The notes beneath the pieces were generated by a model. That model ran no database searches, was not told where the DNA came from, and saw nothing but the letters and a program-made list of their open reading frames with translations. Positions 3,132-57,656 of a stretch of 64,000 bases of DNA are shown here, in pieces. Source of the DNA: a bacterium (GTDB taxonomy: Bacteria > UBA10199 > 2-02-FULL-44-16 > JAAZCA01); assembly GCA_021810905.1 (NCBI GenBank), contig JAJZQH010000006.1, forward strand, positions 62,001-126,000, given 5' to 3'. Made by a program: the position numbers and the translations under genes. Positions within the stretch are counted from its first letter, which is position 1, and the number at the start of each line of letters is the position of its first letter.

Positions 3132-3254
3132 GGCAAGCAAGGCACGCAAGGCAAGCAGGGCAGAAATGCTCTCCAGAAAAATTCAAAGACTCATATCGGT
3201 AATTTCTGAACCCGCGCCTTAACAAACGTTGCTTGCATTGCGTGCCTTGCGTGC
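3132..3254 (+). repeat. Nonamer tandem repeats in inverted arms (YchF-like/xdhC spacer)
   Basis: Left arm 3132-3163 has 9-bp units GGCAAGCAA, GGCACGCAA, GGCAAGCAG and a partial unit. Right arm 3229-3254 has the reverse-complement type TTGCTTGCA, TTGCGTGCC, TTGCGTGC. About 65 bp separate the arms. The left arm begins 5 bp after the stop codon of the YchF-like gene and the right arm ends 13 bp before the xdhC start. The same unit family occurs at 29956-30045 and 31846-31892. Confidence 0.8.
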
Positions 3255-3267
3255 AGAGGGATACGGC

Positions 3268-4059
3268 ATGGATCTCGATCACAAAGCCCTGACTCTCAAG
3301 GAAGCAAAGATCCCCTTCTGCTGGGCTACTGTCGTGCGCGCAGAAGGATCTGCGCCGCGGCACGCGGGCGCCAAGATGATCGTCACCGCATATGAATCGT
3401 TCGGCACAGTCGGCGGCGGCGGTCTGGAGCACAGGGCGATAGACGATGCGCGCGACGTAATGCGCAGGCGTTCGCCGGAGCTCTTGCGATATCCGCTGAC
3501 GGAAAAAGGCATCCAGCCGTGCGGCGGCGAGGTCTATATCTTCTTTGAGCCCGTGATGCCCATGCCGCCGTGCGTGGTGTTCGGCGCCGGGCATGTGGCT
3601 GAAAAACTCTGCCCCATGCTCGTGGACCTGGGCTTTGAAGTGACGCTTGTCGACGAGCGCGCCGAGAGGCTTGAACTGCCCGCATTTAGAAGCGTAGCAA
3701 AGCGCGCGAACCTGCTCCCCTCCGAATTTCTTTCAGCGCTGAAATTTACCGACGACCTGCACATCATCACCATCACACACAAGCACGTCCACGACAAAGA
3801 GATAGCAAAGTTCTGCATCGGCAGGCCGTTCAAGTATCTGGGAGTGATCAGCTCTCGCAAAAAATGGGCGCTGTTCTGTGAGAGCTTCCGAAAACAGGGC
3901 ATCAGCGATGCGACGATCGCTCGCGCGACCTCGCCTGTCGGGCTCGATATCGGTGCCGAGACGCCGATGGAGATCGCGGTGGCGATAGCGGCGCAGATGA
4001 TCCAGCTGAACGCAAAACCGGAGGACTTCGCGAGCGGCGTTGCGCACTTTACAACGTGA
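3268..4059 (+). CDS. xdhC: XdhC family protein, molybdenum hydroxylase maturation
   Basis: Predicted accessory protein that binds molybdenum cofactor and aids its sulfuration and insertion into xanthine dehydrogenase-type enzymes. The 263-residue protein has the N-terminal XdhC/CoxI domain (ATVVRAEGSAPRHAGAKM, then GGGGLEHRAI) and a C-terminal Rossmann-like domain (VVFGAGHVAEKL, then IISSRKK-type GVISSRKKW). ATG at 3268 follows AGAGGGA; the longer frame from 3229 would read through a repeat arm. Its TGA stop lies inside a GTGAATC unit of the next array. The MocA-like gene follows in the same direction. Confidence 0.88.
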   Translation: MDLDHKALTLKEAKIPFCWATVVRAEGSAPRHAGAKMIVTAYESFGTVGGGGLEHRAIDDARDVMRRRSPELLRYPLTEKGIQPCGGEVYIFFEPVMPMPPCVVFGAGHVAEKLCPMLVDLGFEVTLVDERAERLELPAFRSVAKRANLLPSEFLSALKFTDDLHIITITHKHVHDKEIAKFCIGRPFKYLGVISSRKKWALFCESFRKQGISDATIARATSPVGLDIGAETPMEIAVAIAAQMIQLNAKPEDFASGVAHFTT

Positions 4060-4178
4060 ATCGTGCGATGGTGTGATCGGCAAATACGTGCGATGGTGCG
4101 TTGGTGCGATCGTGCGATCGTAAAATCAATCCAAGGTATTACGAACGCACGATCGTACGAACGCACGGTTTTACGATT
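4056..4178 (+). repeat. Octamer/heptamer inverted arrays (xdhC/mocA spacer)
   Basis: The whole xdhC-mocA spacer is repeat. Left part: GTGAATC, GTGCGAT, GTGTGAT, then 8-bp units around GTGCGATS up to about 4118. Right part 4141-4178 is in the opposite sense (ACGAACGC, ACGATCGT, ACGAACGC). The arms can pair into an imperfect long hairpin with a loop near 4123-4138. The first unit contains the xdhC stop codon and the last base abuts the mocA start. Confidence 0.8.
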
Positions 4179-4790
4179 ATGCACACATTCATTGGCATCA
4201 TACTCGCTGCTGGAGCCGGCTCCCGCATGGGAGGTCCAAAGGCGTTATTGCGCTTTGACGATGGCGCCACGCTGCTGGAACGACAGTGCGGCATGCTGCT
4301 CGAAGGTGGTTGCTCGCGAATCGGAGTAGTCATCGGAGCGGCAGCGCCAGAAATTCGTCTGGCGCACCCCGCCATCCCTGCACGATGGCTGCTGAACGAA
4401 CTCTGGGAGCAAGGTCAGTTCACTTCACTGCAGATCGGAATCAAGGGAATGCACGCGACGGAGTCCGACGGCGCGGTAGTGCTGCCCGTTGACGTGGCGG
4501 GGGTCTCCGATGCTATCATATCCGCACTGATCGACGCCGCAATATGCAACCCCCACCTCGACGCCATCATCCCGGAATACAACGGCCGCGGCGGTCACCC
4601 GGTTCTCCTCTCCTCTCGCTTCTGCGAGCTGCTCGCGGGCCTCGATCCCTCAGACGAGCGCTCTCGCCTGGACGTGCAGATGGCCGCGAACAAAAACACC
4701 TTGCGCGTTCCGGTGGGCGACCCTCACGTAGTAAAAAACATCAACACACCTGATGAGTGGGAATCATATCGAAAAACCGCGCACCGCTAA
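4179..4790 (+). CDS. MocA/MobA-like molybdenum cofactor nucleotidyltransferase
   Basis: Predicted CTP:molybdopterin cytidylyltransferase or related transferase, 203 residues. It starts with the nucleotide-binding motif LAAGAGSRMGGPKALLRF (residues 10-27) and carries VLPVDVAGVS and GRGGHPVLLS, all typical of MocA. MocA makes the cytosine form of the cofactor used by xanthine dehydrogenase-family enzymes, which fits the neighbours. ATG at 4179 is chosen by homology; no Shine-Dalgarno is visible because the upstream sequence is a repeat arm. A longer frame from 4101 would translate that arm. MobA or a general NTP transferase are less likely alternatives. Confidence 0.85.
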   Translation: MHTFIGIILAAGAGSRMGGPKALLRFDDGATLLERQCGMLLEGGCSRIGVVIGAAAPEIRLAHPAIPARWLLNELWEQGQFTSLQIGIKGMHATESDGAVVLPVDVAGVSDAIISALIDAAICNPHLDAIIPEYNGRGGHPVLLSSRFCELLAGLDPSDERSRLDVQMAANKNTLRVPVGDPHVVKNINTPDEWESYRKTAHR

Positions 4791-6253: not shown

Positions 6254-6390
6254 GTCAGTACTTTGGTACGTTGAAAAAAAACATGTGAATCGGCAAGTAG
6301 TACGTTGGTTCGTTAGTACTTTGGTACGTTGGTACAAAATCTGGTATAAACAAAGTTTACAATTAAACGTACTAACGTACTACTGCTACA
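6254..6390. repeat. Octamer inverted arrays between molybdo-subunit and Fe-S subunit genes
   Basis: Units of 8 bp occur at 6300-6335 (GTACGTTG, GTTCGTTA, GTACTTTG, GTACGTTG, GTAC), with a further short stretch at 6254-6271. The inverted arm is at 6366-6390 (ACGTACTA, ACGTACTA-like). On the minus strand the first arm begins right after the stop codon of the molybdo-subunit gene and the second arm lies before the Fe-S gene, as in the other arrays. Confidence 0.75.
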
Positions 6391-26203: not shown

Positions 26204-26273
26204 TTCGTGGATCGTATCCCCTCATGTACTAGGGCGATTTTACGAACCACGATCCACGAGTCACGATTCACGG
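26204..26273. repeat. Heptamer array with short inverted arm (slt/peptidase spacer)
   Basis: On the minus strand the array reads GTGAATC, GTGACTC, GTGGATC, GTGGTTC, GTAAAAT from 26272 down. A short inverted arm ATACGATCCACGAAG follows at 26217-26203, just before the peptidase ribosome site. The slt stop codon TGA (26263-26261) lies in the second unit, so the last residues of that protein are encoded by the repeat. Confidence 0.78.
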
Positions 26274-28465
26274 CCGTACAACCTCTGATATTTCCAGTAC
26301 GACGTCATCACCTTTTTTACGTAGAGATTCGTCTCGTCGTAGGGGATCTCTTCGATCCACTGTTCGATGTCCGTGAAGGAACCGTTTGAGAGCCAACGCG
26401 CAACCGCCTCCTCGCCCGCATTGTATGAAGCGATCACTGCGGCGGAGTTGCCGGGGAAGAGGCGCGAGAGCTTGCCCAGGTATGCGACGCCGTAAGAGAT
26501 ATTTTCAGCGGGCCGCGTGAGATCCTCCATCGACGGATCGCCGCTGCCGCCTCTCTCCTTCGAGATCTTTCCGGCAGTGGTGGGCATGAGCTGCATGAGA
26601 CCGACCGCGCCTGCAGGCGAGACGACAGCGGGTTTGAACGCGGATTCGTTCTGCATGATCGACCAGGCGAGCATCGGATCGATTCCCTCCCGGCTCGCCA
26701 GGCTTTCCACTGCCGGCTTATATGCCTCAGGGTAAGCCGCCTGCCAGATGAAGCGTGAAGATGCGTCGTGTCCTGGCGAATCATCGAGCACGTATTTATA
26801 TCTCACCTTCGCGATGACGTAGGCCGTGTCATGGACATAGTTGCGCTTGGCAAGTGAGATGATCTCTTCCGGTGAACCGTCGCCGTCGCGCGCCGCGGCC
26901 CTGACCTCCATGGCCGCTTCGTCGTGGAGGCCCAGCCTGTCGAAGAGCGCCGCTGCACCGAGATGTCCGCGTCCTTCCGCCGGAATCCGCGGTTCGAGCG
27001 CGCTGCCCGCGGGCCATGCATCTCGCGCCGCGGCAAAATCCTGCGTGTTGCGCAGATCGCCCGCGAGGGCGCGACCGGCGAGCTCCGCATAGTAGCCGCC
27101 GGGATGCTCCTGCACGATCTTGCGGAAGACGGCCATGGCCTCTTCCTTCTGCTTTATGTGAACGAGCGAGCGAGCCTTCCAGTACTCGACGCGATCGTCG
27201 ATGTCGGCAGCTTTTGCACCGGACTTGAACAGGGCATCGAAGTCTCGCGCCGCTGCAGCGTAATCGCCCTGCATGTAGTTGCACCAGCCGATGTACCAGC
27301 GCGCCATAACCGCCTGATGGCCCGCACCTCGCATGGACGCCGCCCGCTCCCAGAGAGGAATTGCCTCTGCATAGCGCCCCTCGTCCATATGGAGGAACGC
27401 GATCTTGTACGCCATCTGCGCAGCGCCGCGCGAAGCAGGAGGCATTCGGTCCAGCATCCCCTGTCGGATCGAGAGCGCCTTGGCGTAGTCGTTTTTCTTC
27501 ATGTAGGTCGTGGCGAGCGTTCCCAGGAGATCGTCCGAGAACGAGCCGGATGAAGGATCGCGCCGGAGCGTTTCCATGATGGCTATCGCTTCGTCGTAGC
27601 GGTGGGTCCAGCGATAGCATCGCGCCAGCATCCACTTCGCGCGGACGAGATCGGAGCCGTTAAGAGAACCGTGCTTGACGAGCTTCTCCAGCCGCACCGC
27701 GGCGTCGGCCCATTGCGACGCGGCTACATAGCTCTGAATCAGGCGAAGCTGCTGCTGTGGCTCTTCGATCCACGCGCGCACATCTATATGATAGCGGGAC
27801 TTGAGCGCGTCGAAGAGATCGTTCAGCTGCGAGAGCTCCCTCTCGCCAGCGCAACTGATCGCCATATTCCTGATATACGAAGCCGCGCGTTCTCCATCAC
27901 CCGACGCGATATAGGTGCGGGCCAGTTCCCGGTCTATGCGCGGCTTGTCACTGGCGTTCGCGGCGCCAAGCGCGCGAGAGAGAGAAGAGGCTGATTCGGA
28001 ATATCGGCCCGATCCCGAGAGAGCTATACCGCGCTCGACAAGCGCCTCGTTAGACCACACGCTGTCGCGCCCAATCGCGTCAAAACGATCGAGCAACGCC
28101 AACGCGTCGGAAAATTTTCCCATGCGGTTGTCGGCCGCGGCCATAAAATAGAGAATGTGATCTTGAGCGGCGGCCAGTTTTCCGTCCGCGAGCCCGAGAT
28201 AATGTTCTGCAGCGGCCCACTGCCCGCCCACGAAATTCGCGTAGCCCAGCACAAAATTCCAGTCGTCCTTGTTGTATTTTGAAGCCCTGCTCTCAAAGCC
28301 CGCAAGACCTTGCACGACTTGATTGAGGTCGCCGGGCTCCATCGCTTCAGGCGCGCGTACCGCCTTGGCTGCAGGTTTGGCGCGTCCCGCAGCACACGCG
28401 GGCTGCACAACGGCAAGGGCTGAGAGCATTGCAGCTAAGACAATTGAATGAAATTTGTGAGCCAT
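26261..28465 (-). CDS. slt: Soluble lytic murein transglycosylase
   Basis: Periplasmic enzyme that cleaves peptidoglycan glycan strands to 1,6-anhydro products, 734 residues. Signal peptide at 1-26 (AAMLSALAVVQPACA). A long helical, TPR-like superhelix (about 40-560) resembles the U and L domains of Slt70. The C-terminal SLT domain has catalytic Glu in LAWSIMQNESAF, followed by AVGLMQLMPTTA and IASYNAGEEAV. No Shine-Dalgarno is obvious; the region before ATG is a repeat arm. The C-terminal RES and stop come from a heptamer array. Confidence 0.92.
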   Translation of the reverse strand: MAHKFHSIVLAAMLSALAVVQPACAAGRAKPAAKAVRAPEAMEPGDLNQVVQGLAGFESRASKYNKDDWNFVLGYANFVGGQWAAAEHYLGLADGKLAAAQDHILYFMAAADNRMGKFSDALALLDRFDAIGRDSVWSNEALVERGIALSGSGRYSESASSLSRALGAANASDKPRIDRELARTYIASGDGERAASYIRNMAISCAGERELSQLNDLFDALKSRYHIDVRAWIEEPQQQLRLIQSYVAASQWADAAVRLEKLVKHGSLNGSDLVRAKWMLARCYRWTHRYDEAIAIMETLRRDPSSGSFSDDLLGTLATTYMKKNDYAKALSIRQGMLDRMPPASRGAAQMAYKIAFLHMDEGRYAEAIPLWERAASMRGAGHQAVMARWYIGWCNYMQGDYAAAARDFDALFKSGAKAADIDDRVEYWKARSLVHIKQKEEAMAVFRKIVQEHPGGYYAELAGRALAGDLRNTQDFAAARDAWPAGSALEPRIPAEGRGHLGAAALFDRLGLHDEAAMEVRAAARDGDGSPEEIISLAKRNYVHDTAYVIAKVRYKYVLDDSPGHDASSRFIWQAAYPEAYKPAVESLASREGIDPMLAWSIMQNESAFKPAVVSPAGAVGLMQLMPTTAGKISKERGGSGDPSMEDLTRPAENISYGVAYLGKLSRLFPGNSAAVIASYNAGEEAVARWLSNGSFTDIEQWIEEIPYDETNLYVKKVMTSYWKYQRLYGRES

Positions 28466-28476
28466 ATTTCGGATTC

Positions 28477-28576
28477 GCGGATCGTGCGTTCGTGAATCGT
28501 GTATCGTGTATCGTGTATCGTGGATCGTAACCCCCTCAGGTTTTTACGATCCACGATCCACGATACACGATTCACG
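28477..28576. repeat. Heptamer arrays forming a long hairpin (barrel fusion/slt spacer)
   Basis: The clearest example of the class. Left arm 28492-28530: GTGAATC, three GTGTATC, GTGGATC, GTAA. Right arm 28544-28576: TTAC, GATCCAC twice, GATACAC, GATTCACG. The right arm is the reverse complement of the same unit order but with other copy numbers (one GTGTATC and two GTGGATC). The loop is about 13 bp. It lies immediately after the TAA of the gene at 28579 and reaches to within a few bases of the slt start. Confidence 0.88.
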
Positions 28577-28578
28577 CG

Positions 28579-31500
28579 TTAAAAGATTGTGCCTATCGAC
28601 AGAATGAGCATACCGTACTTTACGTTGTTGCCTATTATCGGGTCTGTGATACCTACCAGGCGATCGCGGTTCAGGACTATGATGGCGTAACCCACTCGGC
28701 CATGTATCGGCAGGCCGTGACCTATCACAAAATCGCCGCGAAGTTCGGCTCCTACGCCCAGGAAGAAGTCGTCGAAGAAAGTCTTGATGCTGTCTTTGTT
28801 GGGATTGCCAGCGTTCCAGCCGTCTCCGTAGTCCGCAAAGATCGCCCCGCTTATATCCTTGAGATAGACTGGTACGGTGCCGAGCCCGCGCTGTAACGAA
28901 TAGATCGGGAAGCGGTACTCGGTCGAAAGGACCATTGCGCGAGTAGCCGAGATTGCAGAGAGAGGAAGACCGCGCAGGGGGAAATAGTTATACGAGCCTC
29001 CGGATGCGAACTGGCCTTCACCCAGGGCGCCACCGACTCCGAACGTGCCCTGCACTACCTTGTCTCCCCACGTCATGCCGCCCATGCCGCGGAAAGCCAG
29101 GACATGATGGCGCCAGAGCTTCACGTACTCACGCCAGTCCCCTGCAAAGATTATCTGTTCGTTGCGATCGCCCGAACCGAAGTACTTGTTCGTGATGCTT
29201 GCGTCGAGCTTGATGTTGCGGCCGTTCTCGCGGCTGATAGAAGCCGGATACTTCTCTGAATCTCCGTACCTGTATTCCACGAAAAATCCCGCGAAGTGTC
29301 CCAGGTTGAGCGCATTCTGCTCAGCGGGCGTAAGCGTGGTCTTCGGCCGGTGGTCCTCGAAGAAATACGAGAGGCTCAGGAAGTGTTTCTTGTACGGAAT
29401 CGCCAGATACGCAGACGCGCGCTGCCTTTTCTCGAAGTAGTGAACGATATTCAGGGCGCCGTTTTCCAGAAAGGCTATATTGCCGAAATCCACTGCAAAG
29501 TAGCTGGCGGTCACGCCGACGATCGGCTTGAACCTGTTGTATCCGTACACGAACGTATAACCCAGGAAGTTCGCGTCGCTGCGATAAGTGGCGGCAGCCG
29601 CCCAGTTGTGCCAACGCAGCGGATCGGTGCCGCCGGTGAGCGCGCTGGCGAAGACATATCCGTCGCCATACATCGCGTACGGCACGATGAAGCGCGGGAG
29701 GAAGAGAGACTTGCCGAAGGCGACGTATTTTTCATCCTTGAAATCCGCGTCCGGCGGAAGGGGAGGCGGCGCCGCAGCAGCGGCAGCGGCCGCCTGTTTT
29801 TTATATTTCGCGTATTTGTTCTGCTTCGCGCCAGAGGTCCGGATCTCGGCTGCGGTGCTTCCAGCTTCAGTTGCACTGCCGGACGAAGCGACTATCCCTG
29901 AGTTGCCGGTATTTACGGCGCCGCCCGCACTCGCTCCCGTAATTTTCGCGCCAGCGTTGCTTGCCTTACTGGCGCTGTCCACGTTACTTGCCGTCTTTTC
30001 GTCGCTGGCCTTCTTTTCGTTGCTTGCTTTGCCTGCCTTGCTTGCCTCTATCGCCAACCCGTCAAACCGCGCGATCACAAATCCTTTTGAGGTATAATAC
30101 TGCGCATAGATCTGGCCCGAGGATGCGATCTGCGGCTGAAATACCCCGGTGATGACATTCGTGAGTTTCCTGGATTGGCCGCCGTCTCTGCCCACGACAT
30201 AGAGGTTGGCAATGCCGCTCTCGTCGGATGAATATACGATCGAATTGCCGTCAGGCGTCCACTCGGGCCTGCTCTCTACGATAAGCCCCTTTGCCTCCGT
30301 GAGCTTCACGGGCATGCTTCCATCGATGGCGTATCTGTAGATACGCCAGCCTTCATCCGGCTTCCATACTGATACGGCCATAAAATTGCCGTCCGGCGAG
30401 ATCCTGGGATTCGCGAACTGCATGCGCGGGGGGACGTTCGGCGTAATAGCGGTGATCTCTTTCGATTCGACATCTATGCGATTGAGCCGGCCAGTACCGT
30501 TGTCGTACGCGACGAAGATGACTGATTTGCCGGCGCGGTCGAATTCAGGATCGCGAGCCCTCTTTCCGTTGGTGAGCCTCTTGGCCCTGGATTTTTCTTT
30601 CTCTATCGAAAAATCGTAGAGCCAGAGGTCGAAGTACTTGTTGAAATTTTTATAAGTTCCTGCTGAGGCATAGACGATCCTCATTCCGTCCGGGCTCCAC
30701 GAATACTGGACCGCGTCCTGTCCCTTGCGAAGGACCTCAGTCTCTCCCGTTGCGAGATCGAGCAGCCGGATCTCGGTTTTTCCATGTGGAGAGTTCGCGG
30801 TATAGACGAGCTTCGTCCCGTCGGGAGAAAGCGCGGGTGCGTTGTACTGGCCGTCCCATCCCGTCGGCACGATTGTCTCCGAGGGCTTTGTCTCGCCGGC
30901 CGCCTCGATTTGCGCCGAGAGTTCCGCATATTTCTTTATGAGGGACTGCCGCCATTCGCTCCACATCTCGTAGAACGTCTTGCCGTAGACGTTCCGCGCG
31001 TCGTGGTTGATCATTCCAAGAAGCAGCGACGAACGGATATTGTGGTCGAGCTTCATGAAGCGATCGATGCCGTAGGTTTCGATAAGCCAATCGATGAATC
31101 CAATGCCGTAGACATAGGCGCCCTTGTATCCCGGCCAGCGCCAGCCAAGTCCGTCGGCAACGTCTATCGTAGGGAATTCGCCGTCGAGCGTGGCGGCGCG
31201 AATGACCATCTCGCTGTACGAGCCCCTGCCGCGGCCGGCCTTGGTGAAATAAGTCTCGTCATATTGGGAGACTCCCTCGCGCATCCAGACCGGGTTCATG
31301 CCTGAAGGGGAGACCGTCTTGCCCAAAAAGATCCTCGGAACGATCATCGCCCCGCCGTAGGCGTCTATCTGAACGAGGTGAGTAAATTCGTGGAGCAGCA
31401 GCGTGCGGAGCCAGTCGTCATAATTTGCCAGGGATGAATCCGCGTCCGGCGGTGCGACATAGATGATCATCCAGTTGTAAGGCAGCACGCTCGTCATTCC

Positions 31501-31791
31501 GTTGGCTTCGTCGGTGGAATCGGTGAGCACGACCTCGGTGCGTCCCCATGGTTTCCAGTGCCACTCCTCGGTGATTTTCGGGTAGATCTCTTCATAGATG
31601 CGGCCGGCCCGCTGTGCCGTGTCGCTGATGCGTTCGGGGTGGTGTATGCGGAAATGCGGAGTGGTGAGCGTCTTCCAGCCGGCGCCGGGATCAAATACGG
31701 CGGCGTATGACGCCGAGCTCAATATAATAGCGGCTGCGCATGTACAGACTGCCAGAAATCTGCGGACCGCTCCCCCACGAGGACGATGCAT
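28579..31791 (-). CDS. Fusion of MA-like metallopeptidase, TolB-type propeller and outer-membrane barrel
   Basis: 1070 residues from the ATG at 31791, with a signal peptide (VCTCAAAIILSSASYA). Residues 35-310 form a gluzincin domain with HEFTH at 134-138 and VWMREGVSQY. Residues 320-575 form a WD40/TolB-like propeller with repeated SPDG motifs (LSPDGTKLVY, WSPDGMRIVY, ISPDGNFMAV, WTPDGNSIVY). Residues 583-612 are a nonamer-encoded Ala/Ser/Lys linker, then an Ala/Pro stretch. The last 350 residues look like a surface-antigen (D15)-type barrel ending in Phe (LILSIGTIF). It would be an outer-membrane protein with a periplasmic peptidase head. The longer upstream frame to 31890 translates repeat sequence. 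Confidence 0.87.
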   Translation of the reverse strand: MHRPRGGAVRRFLAVCTCAAAIILSSASYAAVFDPGAGWKTLTTPHFRIHHPERISDTAQRAGRIYEEIYPKITEEWHWKPWGRTEVVLTDSTDEANGMTSVLPYNWMIIYVAPPDADSSLANYDDWLRTLLLHEFTHLVQIDAYGGAMIVPRIFLGKTVSPSGMNPVWMREGVSQYDETYFTKAGRGRGSYSEMVIRAATLDGEFPTIDVADGLGWRWPGYKGAYVYGIGFIDWLIETYGIDRFMKLDHNIRSSLLLGMINHDARNVYGKTFYEMWSEWRQSLIKKYAELSAQIEAAGETKPSETIVPTGWDGQYNAPALSPDGTKLVYTANSPHGKTEIRLLDLATGETEVLRKGQDAVQYSWSPDGMRIVYASAGTYKNFNKYFDLWLYDFSIEKEKSRAKRLTNGKRARDPEFDRAGKSVIFVAYDNGTGRLNRIDVESKEITAITPNVPPRMQFANPRISPDGNFMAVSVWKPDEGWRIYRYAIDGSMPVKLTEAKGLIVESRPEWTPDGNSIVYSSDESGIANLYVVGRDGGQSRKLTNVITGVFQPQIASSGQIYAQYYTSKGFVIARFDGLAIEASKAGKASNEKKASDEKTASNVDSASKASNAGAKITGASAGGAVNTGNSGIVASSGSATEAGSTAAEIRTSGAKQNKYAKYKKQAAAAAAAAPPPLPPDADFKDEKYVAFGKSLFLPRFIVPYAMYGDGYVFASALTGGTDPLRWHNWAAAATYRSDANFLGYTFVYGYNRFKPIVGVTASYFAVDFGNIAFLENGALNIVHYFEKRQRASAYLAIPYKKHFLSLSYFFEDHRPKTTLTPAEQNALNLGHFAGFFVEYRYGDSEKYPASISRENGRNIKLDASITNKYFGSGDRNEQIIFAGDWREYVKLWRHHVLAFRGMGGMTWGDKVVQGTFGVGGALGEGQFASGGSYNYFPLRGLPLSAISATRAMVLSTEYRFPIYSLQRGLGTVPVYLKDISGAIFADYGDGWNAGNPNKDSIKTFFDDFFLGVGAELRGDFVIGHGLPIHGRVGYAIIVLNRDRLVGITDPIIGNNVKYGMLILSIGTIF
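29956..30045 (-). repeat. Ten in-frame nonamers inside the barrel fusion gene
   Basis: Exactly ten 9-bp units (plus-strand forms such as GTTGCTTGC, CTTACTGGC, GTTACTTGC, TTTGCCTGC, CTTGCTTGC), encoding 30 residues of ASK/ASN/EKK triplets, residues 583-612. The unit is the same as in the intergenic arrays at 3132-3254 and 31846-31892. It sits between the propeller and the barrel. Confidence 0.85.
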
Positions 31792-31845: not shown

Positions 31846-31892
31846 CGCAAGCAACGCCAGCAAAGCAGGCAACGTAAACAACGCGGGCAAGA
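31846..31892. repeat. Nonamer array between dtxR-feoA and the barrel fusion gene
   Basis: Five 9-bp units on the plus strand: CGCAAGCAA, CGCCAGCAA, AGCAGGCAA, CGTAAACAA, CGCGGGCAA. It lies in the 156-bp spacer upstream of the barrel fusion gene and would be translated as a false N-terminal extension if the longer frame were used. Confidence 0.8.
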
Positions 31893-34864: not shown

Positions 34865-34936
34865 ATCAGCACTCAGCCTTCAGCAACCCTGTTCTCATCA
34901 CGGACTTTGCTGAGTGCTGACCGCTGAATGCTGAGT
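34865..34936. repeat. Heptamer inverted arrays upstream of the feo operon
   Basis: Left arm 34865-34885: ATCAGCA, CTCAGCC, TTCAGCA. Right arm 34909-34936: GCTGAGT, GCTGACC, GCTGAAT, GCTGAGT. Same build as the other heptamer pairs but with a different unit. It sits between divergent genes and is not next to a stop codon. Confidence 0.78.
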
Positions 34937-35930: not shown

Positions 35931-35969
35931 AGGTAAGGTCCGCCGCAAGAGGCGGGCCTCACCTTTTTC
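35931..35969 (+). terminator. Rho-independent terminator after the FGAFK genes
   Basis: Hairpin with 14-base arms AGGTAAGGTCCGCC / GGCGGGCCTCACCT (two mismatched or wobble pairs), loop GCAAGA, then TTTTT. A heptamer array starts at the next base. Confidence 0.85.
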
Positions 35970-35997
35970 GTGAATCGTAAATCGTAAATCGTAAAAG
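35970..35997 (+). repeat. Heptamer array, single arm
   Basis: GTGAATC, GTAAATC, GTAAATC, GTAAAAG directly after the terminator and 15 bp before the next start codon. No inverted arm is visible. Confidence 0.8.
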
Positions 35998-36012
35998 CAC
36001 GGAGAAATTTTG

Positions 36013-36708
36013 ATGAATTCAGCGGGGACCACTATACCTGCTATTGGCGCGATCGCGCAGTTCGGCGTTTCAGGTGACGTCTCGAATGACGGCACTGAGG
36101 AACTCGTGCCGCTGGATTTCGACGATGGGCTGGACGGAGACGATCCTGCGCTGGAAGGGACTGCCTTTCCGCTGCCATCAGACGAGCGTCAGCACATGGA
36201 CGCATTACTGAGAGGAACGATGGCTATTTACAGAACACCTGTGGCCATCGCATCCGTTCAGCCGCCTCCGCAGCTTCAGCCTTCCCAACCGCCGTTCGAG
36301 AAAAGGATAGTCGATCTCGCCATTGCAGCAGTCCCTGCATCGGCGGAACCGCCTCAATTCATCACGCCGCCTCCTCTGCCTGAGCCGCCTCCACTTACGT
36401 TCGCGCAGAAGCTTTGGCAGAATATTCGGAGATCGTTGGGCGCAAAACCTGAAGACGTTATCTTACCGCTGACATCGGCTCAATTCTCCTCCCTGTCTCA
36501 AACAGGCAATATATTTGGACTCAGGTGGAGCACTATAGAAGGATGCTGGGTCTTCAGGGCACGCGCGAAAGATCAGCTCGCCCGATACCTGCACCCCTCA
36601 AGGTTCGTGGAATACCCGGACGGCGCCATTGAACTAAAAGTCAAAGGGACGAACGACCACGTACTCCTCCATCCCAGGCGAAAAAGCCCAGCCAAAGATA
36701 AATCCTGA
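36013..36708 (+). CDS. Hypothetical proline-rich protein
   Basis: 231 residues, ATG with GGAG 8 bp upstream. The first 60 residues are acidic and low in structure, then there is a Pro-rich stretch (QPPPQLQPSQPPFEKR; PPPLPEPPPL). The C-terminal third (about 135-231) looks globular and basic, with LTSAQFSSLSQTGN and WVFRARAKDQLARYLHPSRF. No family was recognised. There is no signal peptide or membrane helix. It follows the FGAFK genes but is cut off from them by a terminator and a repeat. Confidence 0.7.
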   Translation: MNSAGTTIPAIGAIAQFGVSGDVSNDGTEELVPLDFDDGLDGDDPALEGTAFPLPSDERQHMDALLRGTMAIYRTPVAIASVQPPPQLQPSQPPFEKRIVDLAIAAVPASAEPPQFITPPPLPEPPPLTFAQKLWQNIRRSLGAKPEDVILPLTSAQFSSLSQTGNIFGLRWSTIEGCWVFRARAKDQLARYLHPSRFVEYPDGAIELKVKGTNDHVLLHPRRKSPAKDKS

Positions 36709-53872: not shown

Positions 53873-53947
53873 CAAGGCAACTGCGATGGTGAGGCGAATC
53901 TACGGTGATGATCAAGCGACGATAATGCGAATTGATGGCGGGTGTTC

Positions 53948-53975
53948 GATTCACGATTTACGATTCACGATTTAC
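53948..53975 (-). repeat. Heptamer array over the stop codon of the PHP lipoprotein gene
   Basis: On the plus strand GATTCAC, GATTTAC, GATTCAC, GATTTAC. Read on the minus strand the first unit is GTAAATC, and its TAA is the stop codon of the lipoprotein gene. Single arm. Confidence 0.82.
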
Positions 53976-56900
53976 GGCTTTATCGGCGAGATTCCCTCTT
54001 TTACGTATTTCGCGGTGAAGCCGTTGCCTTCGGTATCGAGGAATATCGGGTTCGCCAGCGCCCAGGCGCTGGCGCCTACTCGCTCGTCGGCGTGGAATAG
54101 CGCTAGGTTCGCGGGGTCGATGCTTTCGGGCGCCTTGGTCTCGTCGACGAGCGCGTTGGTGACGATCGGGAAGAGCGAGCGGTAGCCCTTTGTCGAATGC
54201 GTGCCGCGCGCCATCACGACTACCCACGTGTCCTCGTCCACCGTGAGATCGAACGTCACACTCGCGGTGATCGCGCCGTTCTCCTCTTTCCAGTCCGTGA
54301 GCGTCCCCTCCGCAAGGCTGAAGCTCTTCGTGGGTTCATACGAATAGCGCGGCATGTGATACGGCTTGTAGAACGTTGCCGGATCTGCCGCTGTCCCCTG
54401 CATCGGCGTGTCCGTGGCGTCGTCCACGGGCATGGGCTCGGTGTTCGCGTATACCTCTATGGTGTCGAACCACGCCCACGACGGCGCGGTCACGTTCACC
54501 GTGAACTGCGCGTGCCTACCCTTGATCGTGCCGCCAACGTCTGCAGAATCGCCCGCATCTCCTTTTGCCTTCACCATGATAATTGGACCAGCTGAGATCG
54601 TGGTCTTGTGCGCCTTTACGTTTGCCGCGTATTCGTTGAGATCGATGGCGTCGTGCGACGCACCCATTCCGTCCGCCGGGTCCACGGAACTCGCGATGAA
54701 ATTGCGCGGGATGCCCACCGGATCCGGTACGACGCGGTGGCTGTCCGAGTCCGCGGTCGCCGTGGCGAGTATCCCTAAGTTGAGCAGGTTGAACCACGTC
54801 GGGAGTGCTGCGCGGAAGAGTATTCCGTTGTCGTGCAGATGCGGCCCCACCACCAGCTCCACCGCGTCGTAGTTTGCGGTCATGAGACCCGACTCGCCGA
54901 ACGGAATCGGAAACGCGGTGCCCGAACTGCGCGGCGGCATGCGGCGCTCCACCGGATCTGCGTAGCTCGACAGCGGCGCCACGCCGAATCCATCCATATA
55001 GAAAGGTGTCGTGACCCAGCCCGACGCGAGCGGCAGCCCAGTGGGGTTGTCCATGAGGTGATTGATCTGAATCACGGGATTCGCGGGATCTGATCTCAGC
55101 CTCGTTATGAGTTCGTCGAGCGAAGGCCCGACTTCAGGCGCCATCGAAACGATGTCGTCCGGCATCTCGCTCCAGTCGGGCGCGCCGCCGTCTGGATCGT
55201 CCGGATGAGGAGTGAGCGGATACGCGTGAATATGTCCGTAATGATTGGGCGTAATCTCGTCCCCGGGCGAAGACCTGATGCTGCCGGCCTTGATGAGCCC
55301 CATATTGACGAGCGACGCGATCACGGGTTCGTAATCCACGATATAGTCGTGATCGGACGATTGCAGCACGTCGAGCCCCTCCGCCGCAGCGGAAAGCACG
55401 CGCTCTTCCTGGGTGATATTCGAATCCGGACTCGCGATGCAGTGGATATGAAAGTCCGCGCTGATGTAACCCGGAGTCTTCACGATGCGCTTGAGCTTTA
55501 TCTCTCCGAGGTCGACCTGTGCTCCGGCCTGCACCTCTATCACCTTCTCTTCCGCCGCATATTCCGGCCCGTGGCTGAAGTTGAAGAGATATGTCCCAGG
55601 CTCCAGGTTGAAGCTGGAGCTGCCGGTCATGTCGAACGTCCCGCGAATGGTCGTGTACTTCACGTCGACTATTCCGAACGGTTGCAGCCAGTAAATGGTG
55701 GAGCGGAATCTTCCGGCGCTTCCAACCTTGTTGGGACTGGGATCTTCGCCGACTATCGTGAGCCTCACGGGCATCGGCTGCGCGCTGTCCGCGTCCACTA
55801 CGGGTTTCGACAGCGTCACTGTCCCGACCTCTCCCAGCGTGCACGTCACGCTCGCCGCTTCTTTCGTCTCGACGTCGATCTCCGCGGGATCGCACGAGCC
55901 GGCGTCCGTGGTGCCGTTCTTCTGGAAGCCGGGCATCTCCACGCTGACCTTGTAATGACCGTCGCCAAAGCGCCTTGATTCGAGCTCTCCTCCCGTGGGC
56001 AACTGCCCCGAGAAGCGGCCCGCGGAATCCGTGCGATACGTGATGAGGGTTCCGCCGCCGGAATTCACTGCCACTGTAGCGCCGGCGACCGGCTTGCCAG
56101 CCGCGTCCTGAACGCGCCCGGTGAGCGGCCTCGTTGCTGCGCCAATTGCGGCCAGCCCGTTGTCCATGACCTCGCCCGCGGAACCGCCGCCCACCACCAG
56201 GTAGCTCGTGATCGTACGCGACTGCCCCGCCGGGATGACGAAATGAATTTCCGGAGTGCCGCCCATTCCTAGAGGAAGTATCTTGAGGAATTCCTCTCCA
56301 AAGACCAGGCCCGTAACTCCTGAATAGGAAACAGACGCGCTGTTGTAAGGCTGGCTCGTCTTCGGGTCCATGAATTGCGCCGCATTGAAGAAGTATCCAT
56401 AGGATGCCCCCGCGCCGTCGAATGCGGCATATACCACCGCCGGGGTATTGCCGCCGACCTGCGTCATGAGGTCTGGCGTAAAGCCGATGCCCGGCACCAG
56501 CATGGAGACCTGGCCGGACAAGTTTACGAACTCGCCCATCGGGAGCTTGATGTCTTTTTCACCGTCATTCTTGAACGTGGTGTCGATGCGCACGTAGTTC
56601 TTGCCCGGCTCGAGCGTGTAGTCGGTCACGACCTCAGGTTTGAGGCCCTTGAGGTCGTCGTAGATCTCGAACGGATTTCTGCGATCGTCGAAGCGGTTTG
56701 AAAAGGAAATCGACTGACCTGCCACACCCTGCGCAACCTCGCCTATGAAGTCGAGATCCAGGTAATCGTACACGTCGATGAGCCCGTGCGCGCGCAGGAC
56801 CTTCGCGCCGCTCTCCGTGCCTTCCGTTACGGCCTCGTAATTCTGATAGTTGACGGTCCATTCGATATTCACGAGCGGAAACATCGAGCCGAAGCTGTCC

Positions 56901-57308: not shown

Positions 57309-57460
57309 AAAAGACGCGTCCTTCTTATCGGCCCTTCTCTCAATATGTTGCGCACTTATTGCAGAAATCTGAGAATGCCGCTAGGCGCCATGCAGCAAGG
57401 CTTTGCCGGGGTGCGTCAATACAAAGAGCCCTGCAGCGTAAGCTGCAGGGCATCCACCAC

Positions 57461-57656
57461 CCTCTCCCTTGAGGGGAGAGGGAAGGGTGAGGGTGACCCC
57501 CTCTCCACCACCCTCTCCCTTGAGGGGAGAGGGAAGGGTGAGGGTGACCCCCTCTCCACCACCCTCTCCCTTGAGGGGAGAGGGAAGCCTGCCTGCCGGT
57601 AGGCAGGGGTGAGGGTGCCCCCCTCTCCCCGACCCTCTCCCGCAAGGGGAGAGGGA
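57461..57656. repeat. 51-bp tandem repeat with G/C-rich hairpins
   Basis: Four copies of a unit built around CCTCTCCCTTGAGGGGAGAGG, starting at 57461, 57512, 57563 and 57634. The first two steps are exactly 51 bp. The third step is 71 bp because of a 20-bp insert that contains CTGCCTGCCGGTAGGCAG. The fourth copy has CGCAAG in the loop. Each core can form a stem of about 8 bp. The unit resembles REP-like elements common in bacterial spacers. Confidence 0.85.

Follow-up and report, generated by a model that had tools for sequence, protein, structure and literature searches.

The tandem arrays of 7-9-bp units that occupy many gene spacers of this genome did not arise independently at each locus; they are parts of dispersed palindromic elements, which form about seven families. 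These elements are palindromes of roughly 90-130 bp and resemble miniature inverted-repeat transposable elements (MITEs). The arrays were regarded as members of dispersed families because their loops, the order of their unit variants, their outer ends and the polarity of their arms were conserved. The reading that we consider probable is that MITE-like palindromes were dispersed and that slippage then acted secondarily in one arm.

The source genome comprised 2.98 Mb in 21 contigs and was 99.5% complete. The window, the whole stretch of 64,000 nucleotides under analysis, corresponded to C18:62001-126000. About 1.52 Mb of the host genome was analyzed as stretches, in which a stretch of contig C5 and 5 kb of C6 consisted of N, and the first array counts came from a 0.75-Mb subset. 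The host was placed in a phylum-level group of 46 genomes. The nearest relatives in the comparison shared the family of the host and belonged to other genera; about 0.4 Mb of the family member G002 and smaller amounts of the others were sampled.

Tandem Arrays and Their Inverted Pairing

The 0.75-Mb subset contained 40 arrays with periods of 7, 8, and 9 bp (24, 14, and 2, respectively), and simulated sequence (first-order Markov) contained none, which ruled out a chance origin. The number of arrays was 76 once the sample reached 1.52 Mb. For 30 of the 40 arrays, the score of an inverted partner within 150 bp exceeded the 98.5th percentile for 200 random placements. The original prediction had proposed a genome-wide class of inverted tandem arrays, and this was supported: pairing was far beyond chance and more frequent than for random arrays. 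An assembly artefact was practically excluded because the same build recurred across numerous contigs of the host, in related genomes and in viral contigs of other origin.

The six paired loci first read in the window (28.5 kb, starting at 28477, and 4056, 6254, 3132, 34865, and 26204) were all present in the sequence, and they folded better than shuffled sequence (z -8.7, -5.9, -2.8, -4.7, -3.3, and -2.9, in that order). The four proposed single arms (352-372, 31846-31892, 35970-35997, and 53948-53975) were also present, that at 31846-31892 in degenerate form (E 5e-4), and an additional array at 78-108 had been overlooked. No known RNA families were found at the hairpins.

Elements of the Window

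The complete 7-mer element at 28484-28586 belonged to subfamily A2 (nhmmer E 4e-26). It had (TCGTGNA)n arms and a loop with CCTCAGG, and was located between two minus-strand genes, just beyond the stop codon of the gene at 28579-31722. The 7-mer element of family A at 26204-26293 (nhmmer E 2e-15) had a short 5' arm and an A-type loop (CCTCATGTACTAGGGCGATTTTACGA) related to GGCCTCAAGTACTTGGRCGATTTT, which was present at 11 genome sites. Two elements had 8-mer units. The first, of family F (GTGCGATC; 4058-4183; nhmmer E 1e-26), filled the spacer between xdhC and a mobA-like gene and was abutted by the upstream stop codon. The second, of family B (GTACGTTR; 6291-6382; nhmmer E 8e-18), displayed an outer CAAGTA and the loop CTGGTATA...TTACAATTA, which was common to other B copies; BLAST identity to these copies was ~80-93% over ~40-72 nt. 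The 9-mer element of family C (GCAAGCAAC; 3133-3254; nhmmer E 5e-12) was found in the spacer between a ychF-like gene and xdhC. The 7-mer hairpin at 34865-34936, composed of TCAGCAC / GCTGAGT units, was identified by direct reading and had no family model.

The remaining features lay on the plus strand. The gene of a xanthine-dehydrogenase-type Fe-S subunit began 167 bases upstream of the window and ended at position 369. Alignment with its PDB homologue 4zoh_C located an in-frame insert at 31-105, whose ~21 codons comprised a CCCCTCCCC palindrome and a downstream TCACGAT array (element match at 67-133, nhmmer E 2e-9). Tandem Repeats Finder (TRF) and translation indicated that a single 7-mer arm at 351-374 formed the C-terminus (...KIVNRKP) and the stop codon of the same gene. 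The degenerate single arm at 31846-31889 was assigned to the 9-mer family C (nhmmer E 5e-4). Two further single 7-mer arms were detected by TRF: a CGTAAAT arm at 35960-36015, just before a start codon (nhmmer E 7e-6), and a CGATTCACGATTTA arm at 53934-53981, at a gene end (nhmmer E 5e-6).

Another dispersed repeat family was formed by G/C-rich palindromes (CCCTCCCCTTACAAAGGGGAGGG; also as a 51-bp tandem unit), which were observed at 57453-57587 and 35-70 of the window and at C15:214641-214740. In places they adjoined heptamer arms.

Families of Palindromic Elements

Iterated HMM searches from eight seeds yielded 181 merged elements in 1.52 Mb. The 7-mer families were A/A2 (TCGTGNN), D (CAGAATA), E (CGTCGTT), and G (GTGACCA); the 8-mer families were B and F, and the 9-mer family was C. 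The claim that units vary in sequence and length between loci was therefore only half right, since units do differ and the loci nevertheless sort into about seven families.

The loops, which lie outside the arrays, were conserved from locus to locus. One loop word, GGCCTCAAGTACTTGGACGATTTTACGATC, had 11 genomic occurrences when up to 3 mismatches were allowed, and its reversed control had none. When the arrays were masked, BLAST still joined loci at ~80-93% identity across ~40-72 nt, which covered the 5' arm and loop with variant units included. The order of unit variants was also common to loci, for example GTACGTTA-GTACTTTG-GTACGTTG-GTAC followed by AAAATCTGGTATAGTCCAAAGTTACAATTA. Shared loops and unit order indicated that the paired arms were inherited as part of the element. 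Among same-family neighboring arms within 140 bp, 60 pairs were convergent, 2 were direct and none was divergent.

The outer ends were conserved as CCGT...ACGG or CAAGTR..., and CAAGTR started many B arms. Among arms of the NCGTNNN families, 47 of 135 had an outermost unit beginning with C, compared with 37 of 449 inner units (p 1e-12), and an A-rich stretch was found outside the outermost unit. The corresponding numbers in G002 were 19/32 and 3/119 (p 6e-13). The main units (TCGTGAA, GTACGTTG, GCAAGCAAC, and others) contained no G-tract. The divergence between copies, some 5-20%, gave no sign of a very recent burst.

Arm Length and the Origin of the Arms

As had been noticed at 28.5 kb, the two arms kept the same order of variants and had unequal copy numbers: the last letters of TCGTNNN were GAA, GTA, GTA, GTA, GGA in the 5' arm and GAA, GTA, GGA, GGA in the reverse-complemented 3' arm. 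The partner arms of 16 long arrays (6-16 units) had mostly ~3-5 matching units, which indicated that one arm expands alone. The ancestral arm had about four units, and the long arrays are later growth of a single arm.

It had been proposed that units were gained and lost after, or during, arm copying, with arrays and arms arising locus by locus through replication slippage and template switching on a hairpin. One-armed expansions do occur, and the unequal arms at 28.5 kb agree with such a process. However, unlinked loci have common loops and unit order, the outer ends are conserved, and syntenic junctions have or lack whole elements. Unit gain after the arms had formed was thus borne out, and the local copying of arms by template switching was not. 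We consider this per-locus explanation unlikely as a whole: as the origin of the arms it is largely refuted, and as the cause of later length changes it is likely.

True arm pairs matched better than arms swapped within a family in A2 (z 3.5, p 0.0005) and marginally in A (z 1.6, p 0.06), and general compensatory change between arms was not found across the families. This suggested that arm complementarity was mainly inherited from the family.

Position Between Genes and Possible Role in mRNA

Gene calling relied on a simple hexamer-score script, and counts that rest on gene borders are therefore approximate; on this basis, elements were present in 129 of 542 co-directional spacers of at least 40 nt, in 13 of 91 convergent ones and in 8 of 153 divergent ones (co-directional vs. 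divergent, p 3e-8; co-directional vs. convergent, p 0.056). The CCGT end could be placed relative to the upstream stop codon in 17 cases; it followed at exactly 3 nt in seven of them, and in four the first unit of the element supplied the stop codon. The 3-nt spacing may reflect targeting, or merely the narrow space where insertion is harmless.

The median MFE of the hairpins was -40 kcal/mol. In mRNA, two cistrons would be separated by the strong hairpin of an element, and this predicted hairpin may affect mRNA processing or stability. It is possible, though we hold it to be less than probable, that the hairpins, whatever their origin, are functional intercistronic RNA signals under selection, such as mRNA stabilizers, RNase III sites or attenuators; this would not exclude dispersal as MITE-like palindromes. 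The almost exact bridging of stop and start codons, the preference for co-directional over divergent spacers, the strong folding and the presence of elements in ribosomal operons are consistent with such a role. Against it, about half of the occupied sites had no array in G002, elements were also found inside coding sequence, and there was little sign of compensatory change, because arms matched no better than swapped arms except in A2 and weakly in A.

Two tuf-like genes (C2:231637 and C2:248442) were both preceded by the same AGTTCAA heptamer hairpin, probably as a result of gene conversion between the copies.

Insertions in Genes and Comparison of Syntenic Spacers

In comparison with PDB homologues, in-frame inserts were found in valS, nth and the gene of the molybdenum-hydroxylase Fe-S subunit. 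ValRS had an extra stretch at VWYC...PIVARE (vs. 1gax), and endonuclease III had ~20 extra residues between residues 155 and 183 (vs. 1p59). The Fe-S subunit carried ~21 extra residues between its two domains, where 4zoh_C has ~4 residues instead of ~25 and aligns on both sides. RarA and MiaB were weaker cases.

Orthologous spacers in the relative G002 were empty or short, or contained elements with other units; the gene names at these junctions are a reading of protein ends, not database annotation. The nusG-rplK spacer was 118 bp in the host and 20 bp in G002. Several junctions of 0-2 bp in the host measured 48-98 bp in G002 and contained arrays there. Hairpins were found between rpsL and rpsG in both genomes, with different heptamers. 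The occupancy of orthologous spacers was correlated between the host and G002 (12/25 vs. 13/88, OR 5.3, p 0.0017), which could be explained by old shared insertions, hot spots or repeated insertion.

Dispersal and Candidate Mobilizing Enzymes

The elements possess several MITE traits: they are short and non-coding, have terminal inverted repeats, occur in many dispersed copies and have conserved ends and loops. Some points counted against a MITE-like nature. Some arms stand alone, no transposase linked to the elements was found, and target-site duplications showed no excess over permuted flanks, with element ends that are approximate. A search of about half of the genome for arms enclosing 0.2-4 kb gave one candidate, which held an IVP gene and had no transposase.

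For dispersal as MITE-like palindromes, we propose that a master copy would be moved in trans by a putative enzyme. Most surviving insertions would be those that fall into the few nucleotides separating a stop codon from the following start codon, or that keep the reading frame. One arm would later be lengthened by ordinary replication slippage, and the amplification of different masters may have given each genome its own units.

REP, BIME and REPIN sequences are intercistronic palindromes of transcribed spacers and are rare between divergent genes. The genome contained four Y1_Tnp genes, the gene context of the elements was similar to that of REPs, and the missing target duplications would fit HUH chemistry. 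We therefore weighed a REP/REPIN-type nature of the elements, with the genome's own RAYT-like Y1 transposases as the enzymes that move them, and found this very unlikely. The flanks of the inspected Y1 genes held a different palindrome, GTGCCTGGCACC, or none, and had no such arms. In addition, the arms of the host elements are built of about four tandem 7-9-bp units, which sets them apart from REP stems; their ends differ as well, and the elements do not adjoin the local RAYT-like genes. The GTGCCTGGCACC palindromes, which flanked the RAYT-like Y1 genes at C6:78247-78891 and C6:106778-107428, represent a second dispersed repeat system.

At C2:1861-2337, family-B arms surrounded an S23/IVP gene of ~121 codons between protein genes, an arrangement that recalls 23S rRNA intervening sequences. 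The intact IVP gene inside a family-B hairpin raised the idea that the small hairpins could be related, as non-autonomous forms, to an S23/IVP (PF05635) element of the kind found in these intervening sequences. This seems extremely improbable, since there was one case only, and G003, with 12 IVP matches, had no such arrays in the 180 kb read. The IVP copy number showed no clear relation to array content among the 46 genomes, and no IVP relatives were found in the viral contigs. Elsewhere, two PF05635 genes at C2:210431-211185 were arranged head to head, ~80-130 bp apart, and formed a long inverted repeat. By match coordinates, such pairs were also found in G002:C36, G003:C14, G003:C30, and G004:C74, and they were not in rRNA here.

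Distribution Beyond the Host

Many CGTGACT arrays were found in G002, and arrays of CGTGACT or other units were found in G025, G043, G017, and G041. No arrays of this kind were detected in the sampled stretches of G001, G003, G013, G019, G024, and G029. The TCGTGAA unit was present in eight IMG/VR contigs, some of them near-copies, and several had paired arms with the polarity seen in the host. This indicated that the build was not limited to the host lineage. One IMG/VR contig (L209, 123-182) carried a long GTACGTTG octamer array beside related GTACGGGTGTACATTG units.

An undescribed mobile hairpin system might extend across unrelated bacteria and phages, with common CCGT...ACGG ends and polarity, a genome-specific 7-9-bp unit, and a putative enzyme that would aim insertion just behind a stop codon or before a start codon. 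We regard this broader proposal as doubtful.

Comparison with Known Repeats

Paired arms had been thought unreported for repeats of this kind. That was wrong, as convergent pairs of GGGAATC heptamers are known from Xanthomonas, with 70-75 close convergent array pairs per genome and mostly four units per array (Rehm et al., 2015; PMC4692102). In those genomes, 89-93% of the arrays are intergenic, mostly between co-directional genes and near the upstream ORF, and few lie between divergent genes; some are intragenic, and the sites vary between species (PMC4692102). The host arrays likewise have about four units, form convergent pairs and lie between genes near the upstream ORF. However, Xanthomonas has one G-rich unit, which was studied as a G-quadruplex former (PMC4692102), whereas the host has many units of 7, 8, and 9 bp without a G-tract. 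The host elements also differ in that their loops and ends are conserved, some are inserted in frame, and there is evidence that whole elements were dispersed. They are thus a richer version of repeats known from Xanthomonas, and the GGGAATC heptamers are their closest precedent.

Other systems share single features with the host elements. Rickettsia palindromic elements comprise several families of palindromes, ~100-150 bp long, that occur as in-frame insertions in housekeeping genes unrelated to one another (reviewed in PMC10969869). The host elements are also inserted in frame in conserved protein genes (ValRS, endonuclease III, and the Fe-S subunit), but have tandem arrays as arms and lie mostly between cistrons. 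Like ERIC, Correia, QMITE, and other bacterial MITEs, they are dispersed intercistronic palindromes without a transposase of their own; unlike these, they gave no evidence, in the half of the genome analyzed, of terminal repeats shared with a known IS, and target duplications were not seen in the host. The TAACTGA repeats of Beggiatoaceae and cyanobacteria are heptamer direct repeats, with a single indirect one in a Beggiatoaceae genome (PMC4679880). These and the Calothrix STRR resemble the host arrays as intergenic heptamer arrays at many loci per genome, and differ from them as direct repeats.

The scattered reports of heptamers in Xanthomonas, cyanobacteria and Beggiatoaceae can be tied to one testable idea, namely that the arrays are arms of dispersed palindromes and that long arrays are secondary. 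The conserved ends and loops provide concrete targets in the search for a mobilizing enzyme. About one quarter of the co-directional spacers of at least 40 nt hold an element. The elements would therefore influence the form of operon mRNAs, and essential enzymes would even gain peptides from them.
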